Origin: Thermococcus stetteri
GTDB taxonomy: Archaea; Methanobacteriota_B; Thermococci; Thermococcales; Thermococcaceae
Assembly (NCBI RefSeq): GCF_017873335.1
Contig: NZ_JAGGKB010000002.1
Span: forward strand, 1-64,000
DNA: 64,000 nt
Reading direction: 5' to 3'
The notes beneath the pieces are model-generated. The model ran no database searches. It was not told the origin of the DNA and worked only from the letters and a program-made list of their open reading frames with translations. Made by a program: the position numbers and the translations under genes. Each line of letters starts with the position of its first letter. Positions within the stretch are counted from its first letter, which is position 1. Below, piece after piece: positions 17,798 through 23,448 of this stretch.

Positions 17798-17806
17798 GTG
17801 AAAGAG

Positions 17807-18028
17807 ATGAACGGAAACCTGAACCTTGAGCGCGAGATCATTGCCCTTTTGAAGAAAAAGGGGCCCTTAAGTGTTGCTTTTATCACGAGGTTCTTGACCG
17901 ATATGGGGTTTGAGTGCACCCATCAACGAGTTGAGAGGGTCTTGAGGGGCCTAGTCTCAAGGGGTGTGATCGAGGCATTTTACAATGGCGGCCTTTACAA
18001 CAAGAGAAAGCACTACAGGGTGAGATAA
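17807..18028 (+). CDS. Small winged-helix DNA-binding protein
   Basis: Protein of 73 residues from ATG 17807 (76 from GTG 17798; neither has a clear ribosome site). LEREIIALLKKKGPLSVAFI, RVERVLRGLVSRGVIE and the basic C-terminus form a compact winged helix of MarR/ArsR-like type. The stop codon overlaps the next gene's ATG (TAATG), so the two are translationally coupled. Position ahead of the DUF1102-like secreted proteins suggests it regulates that locus. Confidence 0.65.
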   Translation: MNGNLNLEREIIALLKKKGPLSVAFITRFLTDMGFECTHQRVERVLRGLVSRGVIEAFYNGGLYNKRKHYRVR

Positions 18029-18525
18029 TGAGCGTAGTAAACAATAAACTGCCCTCCAGTATGATACTCGGCAACAAGAGGAGAATGCTCCTCATAGAGT
18101 TCCTCCAGAGAAAAAACGGGAGCGCCGAGCTCAGGGATGTTGTGGAGTACATTGCCGAGAAGGAGGGCAACACCGAGAGAAAGCACAGGAAGAGCGTCTA
18201 CGTCAGCCTCATGCAGACACACCTGCCAAAGCTAGAGCGAGAGGGAGTCGTCGCTTTCAGTAGAGGCACCATAACCCTCCTCAAAGTGCCAAGCAATGTC
18301 ACCCTCTACATGGAAGTAGTTCAGAAGAACGATATAAGCTGGAGTGTGTTCTATGCGGGCCTCTCGGTAATCTTCGCCATCATGGCCCTGTGGTTAGGCG
18401 ACGGTCTTCTTCTCTTTGCCGGGGTGACTTATTTGATAGTCTCGGTCGTACACCACACAAAGACCTATCCCATAGCTAGGCCGAGAGACAGGAAAAACAC
18501 CGAAAAATCAGGGGACAATGCATAG
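18028..18525 (+). CDS. Membrane-bound winged-helix protein (DUF7344-like)
   Basis: Protein of 165 residues. The first 90 residues form a winged-helix domain of the DUF7344 kind (LGNKRRMLLIEFLQRKNG, then ELRDVVEYIAEKEG and HLPKLEREGVV). Two membrane helices follow (about 108-145: VFYAGLSVIFAIMALWLG, LLLFAGVTYLIVSVVHH). Such one-component membrane regulators sit beside surface-structure genes in archaea. It is co-translated with the small winged-helix gene and precedes the structured leader of the secreted-protein operon. Confidence 0.7.
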   Translation: MSVVNNKLPSSMILGNKRRMLLIEFLQRKNGSAELRDVVEYIAEKEGNTERKHRKSVYVSLMQTHLPKLEREGVVAFSRGTITLLKVPSNVTLYMEVVQKNDISWSVFYAGLSVIFAIMALWLGDGLLLFAGVTYLIVSVVHHTKTYPIARPRDRKNTEKSGDNA

Positions 18526-18683
18526 GTAACCTCCAACTTCATATATACCAGGAGAGCCCACATGGTTGTGGAGCGGTCGTAATGGCCGTCCGCCAAGGGC
18601 ACTGTGTTGCCCACCAATGTGGTGTCGAAGCACCTTCGATACCTGCTTCCATACCACAGTGCCTCCGTATAGGAGGCGAAAAA
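18526..18683 (+). promoter_or_regulatory. Promoter and hairpin-rich leader of the TasA-like locus
   Basis: TATA-like TTCATATATACC lies at 18537-18548, so transcription should begin near 18570, leaving a leader of about 110 bases. It holds hairpins CGGTC-GTAAT-GGCCG (18574-18588), GGGCA-CTGTGT-TGCCC (18597-18612) and a 9-bp stem GGTGTCGAA/TTCGATACC (18621-18643, loop GCACC). The 3' hairpin competes with a second pairing, TGTGGTGT (18618-18625) with ATACCACA (18651-18658). AGGAGGCG at 18671-18678 is the ribosome site. Mutually exclusive stems suggest control by a switch or an RNA-binding factor. Confidence 0.5.
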
Positions 18684-19277
18684 ATGAGAAAGAATCTTGC
18701 TTTGGGAATTTTTGGCCTGTTGGTGGCCTTTGGCCTCGTTCTGGGGGCTGGAGCTAACTTCAGGGACTACAACGCGGACAGGAGCGTGCATTGGAACATC
18801 GTGACCGATGACAACGAGCTCATCGACCTGACCCCAATTCAGCCCTACGCGTACATTAACGGCGGCGGCGTCCTCGTTGTGGACATCAGCCCGAACAACC
18901 CGAACTACCCAGGCTATGGAAATGGCCTGAGCCCGAACTCAGAGTACAACTTCGACGAAGTCTTTGAAGTCAGCAACGACCTCTGGGAGGAGAACATGAG
19001 CATAGTCGTGAGGATAACCAGCGACAACAGCGTGATCCAGTTCTACGGAGCCGACTTTGACATCCACGACAGCACCACCGGTCAGACAGTTTACGCCAGC
19101 GACATGGCAAAGAACGACGTCTGCTTTGTTGTGCACAACGGAGACGCGGTTAAGGTAGGCATGGACTTCACAGTCGGAAACGACGCACCGGGCACGGTAA
19201 ACAGCGCGGCGGTACACATCGAAGCCTACAGGCTCGGCACAGAGCCGGCCGAGATAGCTGGAAACTGCGGTCAGTGA
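18684..19277 (+). CDS. Secreted DUF1102/TasA-like fibre protein 1
   Basis: Protein of 197 residues with a signal peptide ending GAGA/NF at about residue 24. The mature N-terminus NFRDYNADRSVHWNIV and the segment DDNELIDL are shared with the next gene's product; the rest is beta-rich and low in Lys, with two Cys. DUF1102-like proteins include archaeal bundling-pilus subunits related to bacterial TasA, which polymerise by inserting the N-terminal strand into a neighbour. That role is inferred from family resemblance and the adjacent SipW-type peptidase. Strong ribosome site AGGAGGCG. First gene of a five-gene run ending at 22854. Confidence 0.8.
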   Translation: MRKNLALGIFGLLVAFGLVLGAGANFRDYNADRSVHWNIVTDDNELIDLTPIQPYAYINGGGVLVVDISPNNPNYPGYGNGLSPNSEYNFDEVFEVSNDLWEENMSIVVRITSDNSVIQFYGADFDIHDSTTGQTVYASDMAKNDVCFVVHNGDAVKVGMDFTVGNDAPGTVNSAAVHIEAYRLGTEPAEIAGNCGQ

Positions 19278-19291
19278 AGGAGGAATGAAAG

Positions 19292-19828
19292 ATGAATAAA
19301 CTATTTGGACTGGCATTGTTAATGGTTGGAATGCTCCTGGCCGTCGGCGCGGGTGCTAACTTCCGCTACTACTCCGCCGACAGGACTGCGAGCTTCGACG
19401 TCGTCTCCGACGACAACGAACTTATTGATCTGACCGCACTCCAGCCCTACGTGACCTACGACGCTGGAAAGCTCTACGTGGACATAAGCGAGTACAACCC
19501 GAACCACCCCGACTGGGGCGGAAACGGTATGAGCCCGAACACGACCTACGTCTTTGAGGAGATGTTCCACGTAAGCAACGAGCTGTGGGAGAACAACCAG
19601 ACTGACTACCCGATCTGCGTCACCATAAAGAGCAACCACGACAACGTTCTGCTCTTTGCAGGGAACTACACTAACCCGATAGCGGGACCATCACAGAACC
19701 TTGAATTCACAGTCTACCACAACAACCCAATACCGATTGGTATGATATTCGACAACACCAACGCAACACTCGGCATGGACCAGTTCCAGCTCAGCTTTGA
19801 GGCGCATGCAGGAGCCTGCACTCAGTGA
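19292..19828 (+). CDS. Secreted DUF1102/TasA-like fibre protein 2
   Basis: Protein of 178 residues, paralogue of the preceding one: signal peptide ending GAGA/NF, mature start NFRYYSADRTASFDVV, DDNELIDLTALQPYV, then DISEYNPNHPDW and a beta-rich body. Several N-x-T/S sites (NTTY, NQTD, NYTN, NATL) could be glycosylated. GGAGG lies 7 bases before ATG 19292, 14 bases after the first paralogue. Duplicate subunits suggest a major/minor pair in one filament, as with AbpA/AbpB or TasA/TapA. Confidence 0.8.
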   Translation: MNKLFGLALLMVGMLLAVGAGANFRYYSADRTASFDVVSDDNELIDLTALQPYVTYDAGKLYVDISEYNPNHPDWGGNGMSPNTTYVFEEMFHVSNELWENNQTDYPICVTIKSNHDNVLLFAGNYTNPIAGPSQNLEFTVYHNNPIPIGMIFDNTNATLGMDQFQLSFEAHAGACTQ

Positions 19829-19871
19829 TTTCCTTTTGGGGCTTTTGCCTCATTTTGTTAGTCTTGAAGAG

Positions 19872-20945
19872 ATGTTGAGGATGAAAAAACTGCTCGAAGG
19901 CGCTATCACAGCCGTAATTTTTATGATACTCATAGCCTCAGTGATGGGCTTCATCCTTGGCAGGCCGATTCTGATATCTTACGCTTATTCCGAGAGCATG
20001 ACGCCCACGATCAACAAGGGCGACCTCTTCTTCATGGATCCCCTCTCGAGGGGCGCCAATGTCGGGGATATCATTGTTTTCCACAGGAGCGACGGCTGGA
20101 CCGTCCACAGGGTTTATGCTGTAGTAGATGGAAAGTACATAACCAAAGGGGATCACAACGTTGCCACAGACCAGCAGGATGGAGTGTATCCAGAGGTTAA
20201 GCCCAAGGACGTGGCCGGAAAGGTAGTCCAAATTTCAAACCACCCCCTGGTGATCAGGGGCGGTGGGGACTTCATAGTGAACCTCAGGAAAAGATTGACA
20301 AACGTCTATGCCATCGTGATAATAGTGATCCTCGGGGGCCTGCTCACCTTCTCTGGCGATACTAAAAAGAGGAAAAGGAGATCGAAGCGGAATAAGTTCA
20401 TCAGAATTCGGGCAAAGACTCTCTATGGGATCGTCTCAGTCCTTATAATCTCCGGTTTTCTGGCAGTTGTCATTGCTTCCTGGGGGACACTGGCGTTTAC
20501 GTACTCATCAACACTGGCTGGAGGCCAGAGGGAGGGCTGGTATCTGCCGGGGAGCGTGTTCGAGAAGAACATAAGTGTTGAGAACCACGCGGTTTATCCG
20601 TTCTACTACTTCTTCAAGGACGAGAGCGGCAGGGTCGAACTGAAAACAACTGAGTTCCGGCTTGCGGGGGGAGAGGCCCAGAACCTCAGCCTTACCGTGA
20701 GGGTTCCCGAAGACACTAGAATTTACAGGGAAGAAATCTCTGTGTGGTCTTATCCGGCTTTCATGCCTGCTGGTCTAGTAAGTCGGGCGTATTCAATAAG
20801 CCCTTACTTCCCGCTGGTGCTTTACCTGATTCCGCTCTCGGCTCTGCTGTTTGCGTTTTACTGGGTCTCCGGGATCTCGGGGGAGTTCGTCTCAATAAGA
20901 AAAGGGAAGATTTTATCCAAACTAACGGGAGATGGTAGGTTATGA
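19872..20945 (+). CDS. SipW-type signal peptidase I with C-terminal membrane extension
   Basis: Membrane serine protease of about 357 residues. After the first membrane helix (AVIFMILIASVMGFILG) comes the catalytic SESMTPTI serine, then GDIIVFH, VHRVYAVV with the His that replaces the bacterial Lys (ER/SipW type), and the Asp of TKGDHN. A second helix closes the peptidase domain near 165. The extra C-terminal part has another helix, an exposed beta-type domain (about 225-320) and a last helix; this is not in standard peptidases and could hold the fibre substrates. The start is uncertain: ATG 19881 is the alternative. Its stop overlaps the next start (ATGA). Confidence 0.85.
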   Translation: MLRMKKLLEGAITAVIFMILIASVMGFILGRPILISYAYSESMTPTINKGDLFFMDPLSRGANVGDIIVFHRSDGWTVHRVYAVVDGKYITKGDHNVATDQQDGVYPEVKPKDVAGKVVQISNHPLVIRGGGDFIVNLRKRLTNVYAIVIIVILGGLLTFSGDTKKRKRRSKRNKFIRIRAKTLYGIVSVLIISGFLAVVIASWGTLAFTYSSTLAGGQREGWYLPGSVFEKNISVENHAVYPFYYFFKDESGRVELKTTEFRLAGGEAQNLSLTVRVPEDTRIYREEISVWSYPAFMPAGLVSRAYSISPYFPLVLYLIPLSALLFAFYWVSGISGEFVSIRKGKILSKLTGDGRL

Positions 20946-21874
20946 AGGCACTTATGGTTCTTGTTTTCCTCATGGGGGCTTTTCTCATAGTGGGTTCCAG
21001 CGGGAACTTCAGGGAGTATTCCTCGTCCAGAGCGGCGAGCGTGATGGTCGTCCCCCATGAGGACGAGTACGTTGGTTTCAACTGCTCGGATGGCGAAATT
21101 GCATCCGTTGTTGTTTCCAATGGGGGAGAAAATGAGTTTGACGTAATGACATTGGAGAACCAGCTCATAACAAACGAGTACGTGAGTATCACTCTGGAGC
21201 CTGCTTACTCCTACGTTCCAGGCGGGGTTTATCTGGACGTCGAGAGCGGTACTGGAACACCCGTTGATATAGCACCGGGGGACTCTCATACGTTTGGGGG
21301 GCACGTTGCGGCCAGCTCGGCAACACCCGGGGAGTACTACGTTCCGGTTACGGTCTATGCCACCTGGGAAGGGGGTGGCGCGGTGATTGAGAGTTGCCCG
21401 ATAAAGATTACCGTGCTTGACGATCCGATGATAAAGAAGGTTCTCCTCTCGGGAAACACAAGCGATATTCCCCTTAAAACGTACCAAGAGTGGACTTTCC
21501 AGATAGAGGTGTCTAACCCCACGAACCACGACATGAACCTAACGGTCAGGGACACGATCCCAGCGGAGTTCAACGTCAGCCTCTCGGAAGTCTCGGCAAG
21601 CTCTGGGACATACAGCTTTTGGGCCTCGAACCAGGGGAACGGCAATGGAAACGGGAACTCTCAACCGGCCACCAAGATGAAGTGGGAAGTCTTAGTGCCA
21701 GCTGGTGGAAGCGAGCACATAAACGTGACGATATTCACGAGGGTGAACCACGGCAACCAGCAGGAGTTCACATCGTGCGGAACTTACTCGCTCAACAATG
21801 GCGCCACGATAGACGGCTACCCAGGAAGGAGCAACGGAATAGAGGTTAGCGTCGCCTGTTCAGACGACGATTGA
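20942..21874 (+). CDS. Secreted DUF1102-like protein 3 (larger paralogue)
   Basis: Protein of 310 residues with a signal peptide ending VGSSG/NF. The mature start NFREYSSSRAASVMVV fits the NFRxYxxxR pattern of the two smaller paralogues, but it lacks their DDNELIDL segment. The body has two predicted beta-sandwich parts; the second (about 165-300) resembles DUF11/CARDB-type adhesive domains (QIEVSNPTNHDMNLTVRDTI) and has a Gly/Asn stretch NGNGNGNS. It may be a minor, anchoring or tip subunit. Translationally coupled to the peptidase by ATGA overlap. Confidence 0.75.
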   Translation: MKALMVLVFLMGAFLIVGSSGNFREYSSSRAASVMVVPHEDEYVGFNCSDGEIASVVVSNGGENEFDVMTLENQLITNEYVSITLEPAYSYVPGGVYLDVESGTGTPVDIAPGDSHTFGGHVAASSATPGEYYVPVTVYATWEGGGAVIESCPIKITVLDDPMIKKVLLSGNTSDIPLKTYQEWTFQIEVSNPTNHDMNLTVRDTIPAEFNVSLSEVSASSGTYSFWASNQGNGNGNGNSQPATKMKWEVLVPAGGSEHINVTIFTRVNHGNQQEFTSCGTYSLNNGATIDGYPGRSNGIEVSVACSDDD

Positions 21875-21891
21875 AGATGGAGTTGATTTGG

Positions 21892-22854
21892 ATGAAGGTA
21901 AACAAAAAGAAGGCCCTGATTGCGGGCCTTGGAATTTCACTGTCATTGGCGGTTCTTTTCGGCATTTACTCGGCCGTGGCCTACGCCACACCTATATCTA
22001 CAAGGGATGTAAGCTACACTACCGCCTATTCTGAGGAAGGTTCACTGAAGCACTACGGCCTCTTCTCGAACGAGACCGTCTACCAGAACGGCACCTCGCT
22101 GGAGTACTATCCCTCGGGAATAACCGGCGCAATAATCGGGGAATACGGGTATTCAACGTCACCGGAGGCTTCTGGCAGTTATAAAATAGAGATACACTCG
22201 AACTACTACGTCTCTGTAAACAGGAAGTCCGTTTACCTGCTCAACCGGACTGCGGAGATAGCATCAGGGACTTTTGACGGCTCGTTCTCGGTTCCGGTAG
22301 AGTTCAACATGACGTCGCTTGGAGAGGAGCTCAGAACGATACGGGAGGGCACAGACCTGCACAGGGCCGAGAACGAGGTCTACCTAACCGTTACCGTCGG
22401 TATAGACGGACGTGAGCCTTTTACACAGAAGATCCAGCTGAAAAAAGACACCTCTGGAATGTTGAGCCTCGATGGAGCTTCCAAAGAGTACCAGAAGGTT
22501 GAGAGGAACGTGAGCATCACTGAAAACAGCGTGGGCTTTTTGGGGACAAACGTCAGGGACTCTACCGCCAGAAAGGTCTTCCCTGCGATGGCACTGCTCT
22601 TTGCGATTCCACCTCTGGGTTTTGGATACTCAAAGAGGGAAAAGAGGCCCAAAGACGAACTCGCTTCCCTGAGGAAGTACGTCGTCGAGGGCAAATCCCC
22701 CGAGGGAACGAGAAAGGTCGAACTCAAAACTCCCGAAGACCTGAAGAGGGTTTTTGAGCTCGTGGACAGGCCGATAGTCCACGATGGCAGTGGCAAATGG
22801 GATATCTACTCAATAGCGGACGGCGACACGGTCTACGAATACCAACAACTTTAA
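21892..22854 (+). CDS. DUF5305-like membrane protein of the TasA-like locus
   Basis: Protein of 320 residues: N-terminal membrane helix (ALIAGLGISLSLAVLFGIYS), an external beta-rich domain (about 40-220), a second membrane helix (VFPAMALLFAIPPLGFGY) and a cytoplasmic tail with TPEDLKRVFELVDRPI and a final DGDTVYEYQ. This layout fits DUF5305 proteins, which lie beside signal peptidases and DUF1102 genes in archaea. The start at 21892 is favoured by GGAG 9 bases ahead; TTG 21871 and ATG 21877 are alternatives. Probably an anchor or assembly factor. Confidence 0.7.
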   Translation: MKVNKKKALIAGLGISLSLAVLFGIYSAVAYATPISTRDVSYTTAYSEEGSLKHYGLFSNETVYQNGTSLEYYPSGITGAIIGEYGYSTSPEASGSYKIEIHSNYYVSVNRKSVYLLNRTAEIASGTFDGSFSVPVEFNMTSLGEELRTIREGTDLHRAENEVYLTVTVGIDGREPFTQKIQLKKDTSGMLSLDGASKEYQKVERNVSITENSVGFLGTNVRDSTARKVFPAMALLFAIPPLGFGYSKREKRPKDELASLRKYVVEGKSPEGTRKVELKTPEDLKRVFELVDRPIVHDGSGKWDIYSIADGDTVYEYQQL

Positions 22855-22911: not shown

Positions 22912-23448
22912 ATGAACCCGTTCCACGAGCTTGAACCCGGGCCGGAGGTTCCAGAGGTTGTCTACGCCCTTATAGAGATTCCGAAGGGGAGCAGGAACAA
23001 GTACGAGCTCGACAAGAAGACCGGACTGCTCAAGCTCGACAGAGTCCTCTACAGCCCGTTCTTCTACCCAGTTGACTACGGAATAATCCCGCAGACCTGG
23101 TACGACGACGGCGACCCGTTCGACATCATGGTCATAATGCGCGAGCCGGTTTATCCGCTCACCATCATCGAGGCCAGGCCGATAGGCATAATGAAGATGG
23201 AGGATTCCGGAGACAAGGACTGGAAGGTCCTCGCCGTTCCCGTTGAGGACCCGTACTTCAAGGACTGGAAGGACATAGACGACGTTCCAAAGGCCTTCCT
23301 CGACGAGATAGCCCACTTCTTCCAGAGGTACAAGGAGCTCCAGGGCAAGGTAACCAACGTTGAGGGCTGGGGCAACGCCGAGGAGGCCAAGAAGGAGATC
23401 CTCAGGGCGATTGAGCTCTACAAGGAGAAGTTCGGCAAGAAGGAGTGA
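22912..23448 (+). CDS. ppa: Inorganic pyrophosphatase (family I)
   Basis: Hydrolyses pyrophosphate to drive biosynthesis. The 178 residues carry the family signature: RGSRNKYE-like [23 protein letters not shown], the metal-binding [10 protein letters not shown], and [14 protein letters not shown] plus KDWKDIDD. This is a normal length and complete. GAGGTGG precedes the ATG. It starts the informational cluster that runs to 25259 on this strand. Confidence 0.97.

Follow-up and report, generated by a model that had tools for sequence, protein, structure and literature searches.

Organization of the locus

The window analyzed here is the whole 64,000-nucleotide stretch shown above (contig NZ_JAGGKB010000002.1, positions 1 to 64,000), taken from the 2.03-Mb genome of Thermococcus stetteri. 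Within it, positions 17798–22854 hold a single run of seven genes, encoding candidate subunits of a surface fibre together with a signal peptidase, a membrane protein and two putative regulators. All genes lie on the forward strand in the order wHTH1, wHTH2, A, B, signal peptidase S, C and the gene of a DUF5305 protein, separated by small gaps or overlapping. The end of the operon was set at 22854 because the gene downstream, at 22912, looks by eye like one for inorganic pyrophosphatase. The gene set and positions of the initial annotation were all recovered, including its DUF5305-like membrane protein, which exceeded the Pfam cut-off. The genes and the short segments discussed below are as follows.

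17798..18028, + strand: wHTH1, small winged-helix-like regulator candidate of 76 amino acids; Pfam matches all below cut-off
18028..18525, + strand: wHTH2, DUF7344 winged helix; PF24035 67.1 bits, cut-off 27.8
18684..19277, + strand: A, DUF1102 fibre subunit candidate; PF06510 195 bits, cut-off 22.2; signal peptide followed by NFRDYNADR
18756..18782, + strand: proposed donor-strand motif of A, NFRDYNADR; from the sequence pattern
19292..19828, + strand: B, DUF1102 fibre subunit candidate; PF06510 190.5 bits, same cut-off; predicted fold
19358..19384, + strand: proposed donor-strand motif of B, NFRYYSADR; inside the unstructured residues 1–20 of the model
19872..20945, + strand: S, signal peptidase of archaeal/endoplasmic reticulum (ER) type with C-terminal extension; start inferred, reading frame open from TTG 19797
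20942..21874, + strand: C, proposed donor motif and two immunoglobulin-like (Ig-like) domains; from the profile match of domain 1, the model and fold matches
21005..21031, + strand: proposed donor-strand motif of C, NFREYSSSR; from the sequence pattern and model
21871..22854, + strand: DUF5305 membrane protein, candidate for anchoring or assisting assembly; PF17231 33.8 bits, cut-off 29; TTG start, ATG 21892 also possible

Genes S and C overlap by 4 nucleotides, and the DUF5305 gene overlaps C if its TTG start is used.

Conservation in Thermococcales

DUF1102 was detected in 87 of 94 Thermococcales genomes (72 of 74 among those of good quality). From these 87, 20 loci were picked to represent different genera and numbers of copies. 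In all 20, the genes stood in the order A-B-(extra DUF1102)-S-C-DUF5305, counting the C gene of L059, which had been missed by BLAST. A wHTH2 orthologue and a DUF5305 gene were present in every locus, and wHTH1 was present in 17.

The start pattern F..[YF]...R was found in 20/20 A proteins and 20/20 B proteins, and it was intact in 18/20 C proteins; the shared motif is thus not a product of chance. The two exceptions were L060, in which C reads FREASMER, and L062, in which the C frame is broken shortly past the motif. In L061, S is split over two frames. The rest of the operon is intact in both L061 and L062, and the two frame breaks may reflect sequencing error, decay or on/off switching.

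Nine aligned B orthologues were 78–88% identical, and seven aligned Thermococcus C proteins showed 27–60% identity to C of the window. Of the three proteins, C thus changes most rapidly.

Candidate subunits A and B and their relation to C

Both A and B are members of DUF1102, a Pfam family labelled 'of unknown function'. No Pfam match above cut-off, DUF1102 included, was obtained for C. In all three proteins the NFRxY-type start lies directly past the signal peptide, at the putative cleavage site.

Profiles were compared by hhalign with signal peptides stripped, since these inflate such comparisons. The mature A/B profile matched domain 1 of C at 97.7% (E 9.5e-12, a single comparison), and domain 2 showed no profile relation to A/B. 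By sequence profile, domain 1 of C is a remote DUF1102 relative, and C is a more distant relative carrying a second domain. The three genes had initially been described as paralogues sharing NFRxYxxxR; the motif is present in all three, and paralogy holds for A and B but does not apply exactly to C.

Predicted fold of B

The model of B reached a predicted local distance difference test score (pLDDT) of 74.1 and a predicted template modelling score of 0.73, with residues 1–20 below a pLDDT of 50. The first 22 residues of the C model likewise fell below 50. Such low values fit a strand that needs a partner, and the N-termini of B and C are, judging from the models, probably disordered in the monomer.

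The predicted fold of B came out in favour of the initial annotation, as AbpA (7ueg) was the first match both in Foldseek (E 1.3e-3, probability 1.00) and in VIA-align (Z 7.5, root-mean-square deviation (rmsd) 3.1, 115 aligned residues). The second VIA-align match was the Sulfolobus acidocaldarius thread (Saci_0406, 7pnb; Z 6.7, rmsd 3.4, 114 aligned), ranked 14 by Foldseek, and the Tafi pilus of Natrinema sp. J7-2 (9p0a) came eighth (Z 6.2, rmsd 3.8, 118 aligned). Structures of Bacillus subtilis TasA were not among the 50 matches listed for B, which has no bearing on the fold.

B and AbpA are both beta-sandwiches whose N-terminal segment is not part of the aligned core, although no sequence similarity between them was detected. 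The thread is an archaeal donor-strand filament made via signal peptidase I; no sequence link between it and B was found.

Relation to haloarchaeal Taf fimbriae

Proteins from haloarchaea and class relatives that begin with a GAFxxVxADR-like start matched DUF1102 in hhalign at 99.0% as mature sequences and at 98.7% once the donor motif had been removed (8 sequences; a ninth was left out since it did not conform to the pattern used for trimming). Relatives of these proteins carry the NCBIfam names TafA, TafC and TafE ('fimbrial'). A profile combining 14 sequences (5 thermococcal, 9 from haloarchaea and class relatives) found 9p0a at E 1.1e-18 and nothing else that was convincing. A Natrialba magadii protein scoring 107 bits with TafE (cut-off 155) also matched 9p0a, at E 4.1e-15.

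By these profiles, the locus belongs with the haloarchaeal Taf fimbriae, its closest filament family. The mature starts are alike (GAFSSVEADR in 9p0a, GANFRDYNADR in A) and the cores are related by profile. The neighbours are alike as well: in Natrialba magadii the Taf-like gene stands two genes before a signal peptidase gene, which adjoins DUF5305. In contrast to Taf fimbriae, the thermococcal locus has two shaft candidates, A and B, and its C often carries a second Ig-like domain. A search of a library of open-access papers turned up none on DUF1102 or on Taf.

Relatives of S were present in 11 haloarchaeal plasmid records, of which seven regions were examined. DUF5305 stood next or next but one to the signal peptidase in five of the seven, and a DUF1102-like or Taf-like protein lay near S in four. 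Two of these were L078 (DUF1102 33.7 bits, over the cut-off) and L079 (TafE 107 bits), and the other two were weak (L076, DUF1102 20.0 bits, just under the cut-off; L081, TafE 21.1 bits). Neither DUF5305 nor a DUF1102-like or Taf-like gene was found by the S relative in the Halorubrum and Haloferax plasmid regions, and a tblastn search of the plasmids with A gave no match. Haloarchaeal plasmids therefore carry a counterpart of the gene set (DUF1102-like or Taf-like protein, signal peptidase and DUF5305), and two of them also encode a small C-like protein whose start resembles that of the subunit beside it. The subunit starts with AFTTASVDR in Halarchaeum and AYTSGSVER in Halobaculum, and the respective small C-like proteins start with AYTTGALDR and SFTTADATR.

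One class relative (G109; L037, L043) showed an unusual expansion, with eleven TafE-like genes, all below cut-off, in a genome of about 1.5 Mb.

Protein C and the third DUF1102 protein

In fold, domain 1 of C is similar to Ig domains of the chaperone type (Z about 10), and domain 2 to those found in pilins and adhesins of Gram-positive bacteria. A weak NCBIfam match to an isopeptide-forming fimbrial domain agrees with the latter. The size of C varies, from one small domain in L058–L060 to 423–458 amino acids in L069, L071 and L073.

According to PMC10151520 and PMC9674648, each B. subtilis TasA subunit hands its N-terminal strand to the next. TapA is described there as having a complete Ig fold and an N-terminus that is donated to begin the TasA fibre, and as unable to accept a strand. 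C is proposed for TapA's role because it combines a donor-like start with Ig-like domains, the first of which resembles chaperone-type domains. By this analogy and from its model, C is a candidate TapA-like initiator or cap, which would give a strand and probably take none. Of the initial proposal that the larger third protein is an anchor or cap, the cap is thus retained, in the form of a putative donor-only end piece.

The tapA-sipW-tasA operon resembles the thermococcal one in its dedicated signal peptidase and in encoding a minor protein that joins a donor-like N-terminus to an Ig domain. The gene of the minor protein overlaps that of the peptidase in both; in PMC10151520, the tapA stop codon is given as overlapping the sipW start. 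The two operons differ in that the thermococcal subunits lie outside the TasA family by sequence, the gene order is different, and S has an added C-terminal part.

Domain 2 of C (residues about 160–310, window 21420–21870) has the look of an isopeptide-forming pilin domain. Visual inspection showed that a lysine of the first strand is kept in all 24 proteins with this domain, whose end position is occupied by Asn (18 proteins), Asp (3), Glu (2) or Ser (1).

A third DUF1102 protein was encoded directly before S in 13 of the 20 loci (L061–L068, L070–L074), in every case without the NFRxY start. Its core gave a 100% profile match to DUF1102 in hhalign (13 of 15 such sequences used). No third copy was found in the genome of the window. 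Since the motif is absent, this protein could accept a strand and not donate one, if the grooves work as in TasA; by analogy, it could be an acceptor-only end piece of the fibre. Its N-terminus (a hydrophobic segment, often followed by an RPIPVxYA-like sequence) resembles the start of the adjoining signal peptidase.

Signal peptidase S

S, encoded between B and C, matched TIGR02228 at 59.6 bits (cut-off 51.85) and the NCBIfam SipW model at only 27.5 bits (cut-off 190). Its best solved relatives are SEC11A/C. Among 33 near-full-length sequences, the serine and histidine were kept in all and the aspartate in 32. These results uphold the ER-type signal peptidase with Ser-His-Asp residues that had been annotated among the subunit genes. 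Ser-His-Asp is the usual residue set of archaeal and ER signal peptidases, and the distinguishing trait of S is its C-terminal extension.

By hydropathy, S has four hydrophobic segments in total. The extension aligns with haloarchaeal signal peptidases (83% query coverage by tblastn in Halarchaeum and in Halobaculum). The genome holds three archaeal signal peptidases, the other two in open frames of 173 and 190 codons. In hhalign, profiles of A/B, C and PF12389 matched neither the extension nor the extracytoplasmic part of the DUF5305 protein (all ≤0.1%).

Proposed fibre and its assembly

Taken together, sequence profiles and predicted folds make it likely that the operon encodes a thin fibre outside the cell, of the donor-strand type known from archaeal AbpA and Taf filaments. 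The initial annotation had proposed a biofilm fibre, citing archaeal pili whose subunits are joined by N-terminal donor strands; a donor-strand surface fibre is also the best reading of the models, given AbpA, the thread and the Tafi pilus near the top of the matches of B and the probably disordered N-termini of B and C. Such a fibre may have a role in biofilms.

In this scheme, S would serve as the dedicated signal peptidase that cleaves A and B upon export, freeing the N-terminal NFRxYxADR... segment. The freed segment, disordered in the monomer, would become a beta-strand donated to the following subunit, and A, B or both would make up the shaft. C would sit at one fibre end, its donor segment ahead of complete-looking Ig-like domains, and would start or cap the fibre as TapA does for TasA. 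For holding the growing fibre at the membrane, the likeliest candidates are the DUF5305 protein and the extracytoplasmic extension of S, and the two winged-helix proteins would regulate the operon.

A more specific extension of the scheme is put forward tentatively, and it is rather doubtful: C would only give strands, A and B would give and take them, and the third DUF1102 protein would only take them, with S forming part of the assembly platform and cutting being coupled to adding. The third DUF1102 protein would then lie at the other end, possibly membrane-held, and S would act through its extracytoplasmic extension. As the genome of the window has no acceptor-only piece, DUF5305 or S would take its place there. 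If true, the system would be an archaeal counterpart of the chaperone-usher system without an usher.

The AbpA/Taf-type fibre would give a probable function to DUF1102 and tie this widespread thermococcal family to Taf pili and AbpA. Donor-strand fibres would then be common to several archaeal lineages, and one operon would offer fibre start, shaft, end and dedicated signal peptidase as roles separable genetically. Donor-strand fibres as such are already known; what is new, on the best reading, is a Thermococcales branch whose end protein is TapA-like and whose dedicated signal peptidase is extended.

Weighing of alternative interpretations

Several results weigh against an AbpA/Taf-type fibre. 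Sequence searches of the PDB with A, C or the thermococcal A/B profile found no filament, 9p0a included; the search with A gave one match, the phage major tail protein 9lwa (E 0.0025, residues 12–101). A also scored far below the NCBIfam cut-offs (TafA 28.1 bits against 190, TafE 18.5 against 155). Since the thermococcal sequences alone find no filament, the Taf link depends on haloarchaeal intermediates, and because the thermococcal profile misses 9p0a and the cut-offs were not reached, the homology is placed at superfamily level and not at that of TafA or TafE membership. The TafA model matched none of the 94 genomes, with the controls silent too, so that absence is not shown by that search alone.

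On the structural side, the B model was built from 20 close sequences at moderate confidence, and one of five models fell to a pLDDT of 49. The VIA-align Z scores of B were all below 8 and may, according to the tool, reflect a common arrangement; matches just below, such as major sperm protein (Z 6.5), are unrelated. Scores of this size would not convince by themselves; the fold link is nevertheless convincing, because three archaeal filaments are in the top eight and one of them is also a sequence relative. Finally, the match of A/B to domain 1 of C dropped to 40.4% when the first 14 residues were removed, so part of that link is the common start itself.

In another interpretation, A, B and C do not polymerize at all but are Ig-like glycoproteins of the surface or associated with the S-layer, or else soluble adhesins, and their shared N-terminus serves only in signal-peptidase recognition or anchoring. 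Ig-like folds are common, unrelated beta-sandwiches reach Z 5–6.5 with B, and the top Foldseek matches of C are mixed Ig-like domains of adhesins, integrins and axonemes. However, the solved structures nearest to B are archaeal donor-strand filaments, and a solved pilus is built from the homologous pilin 9p0a, which has a start of the same type. The motif also runs about 10 residues beyond the signal peptide, which, we infer, exceeds what a cleavage site needs. A non-polymerizing role is considered unlikely. Another structure, such as a tube or a vesicle-linked coat in place of a thin pilus, is suggested by the 'Hyper2 tube' (9bab), which ranked 11 for B in VIA-align with Z 6.1, in the tie range of the pilins; with AbpA and the thread ranking above it and the sequence links pointing to a pilus, this is quite improbable.

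A true TasA/camelysin (PF12389) operon, to which family the initial annotation had likened the subunits, shares the logic of the locus: a dedicated signal peptidase, an initiator-like protein and secreted beta-sandwich subunits. The top fold match of B, AbpA, is moreover described as TasA-related in PMC10151520 and PMC9674648. Yet A, B and C were rejected as members of this family: no TasA or PF12389 match to any protein of the locus was obtained in Pfam or NCBIfam, and no SipW-cognate model matched A, B or C. Against 17 Thermococcales PF12389 proteins, A/B gave 49.8% in hhalign with signal peptides and 1.0% without, and the link was rejected on account of this loss. The only PF12389 match in the genome lies on another contig (C1:731847-732116). 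A TasA/camelysin operon at this locus is very improbable, and its TasA-likeness is one of logic and fold, not of family membership. PF12389 matches occurred in 73 of the 94 Thermococcales genomes; with such a gene located elsewhere, these archaea may have two fibre systems.

Putative regulators and the leader of gene A

Two winged-helix regulators had been annotated. This holds for wHTH2, whose PF24035 match exceeded the cut-off, and wHTH1 is kept as a candidate. C-terminal hydropathy peaks at residues 103–121 and 123–141 suggest that wHTH2 is probably a membrane-bound regulator. Two further features were located upstream of gene A.

18538..18547, + strand: TATA-box-like sequence TTCATATATA upstream of gene A; TATATA columns invariant in 18/18 aligned leaders
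18660..18678, + strand: hairpin GCCUCC/GGAGGC pairing with the ribosome-binding sequence of A; stem kept in 16/16 leaders, hardly varying

The 133-nucleotide leader of A (18563–18695) has a much more stable predicted fold than shuffled sequence (z −5.28). The fold analysis omitted L028 and L074, which are short and not alignable there; in the 16 aligned leaders, the first hairpin contains four pairs with changes on both sides. No Rfam match was found in 18300–18900. The sequence suggests that the winged-helix proteins may control transcription and that the leader may control translation of A, possibly as a translational switch or thermometer. A possible competitor, the helix GGCACTG/CAGTGCC, shares sequence with the 5' arm of the terminal hairpin.

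Inverted repeats of the form GGTAA...TTACC precede the TATA-like box of A in L019, L023, L035, L048, L074 and others, and are a candidate operator for the winged-helix proteins of the operon.

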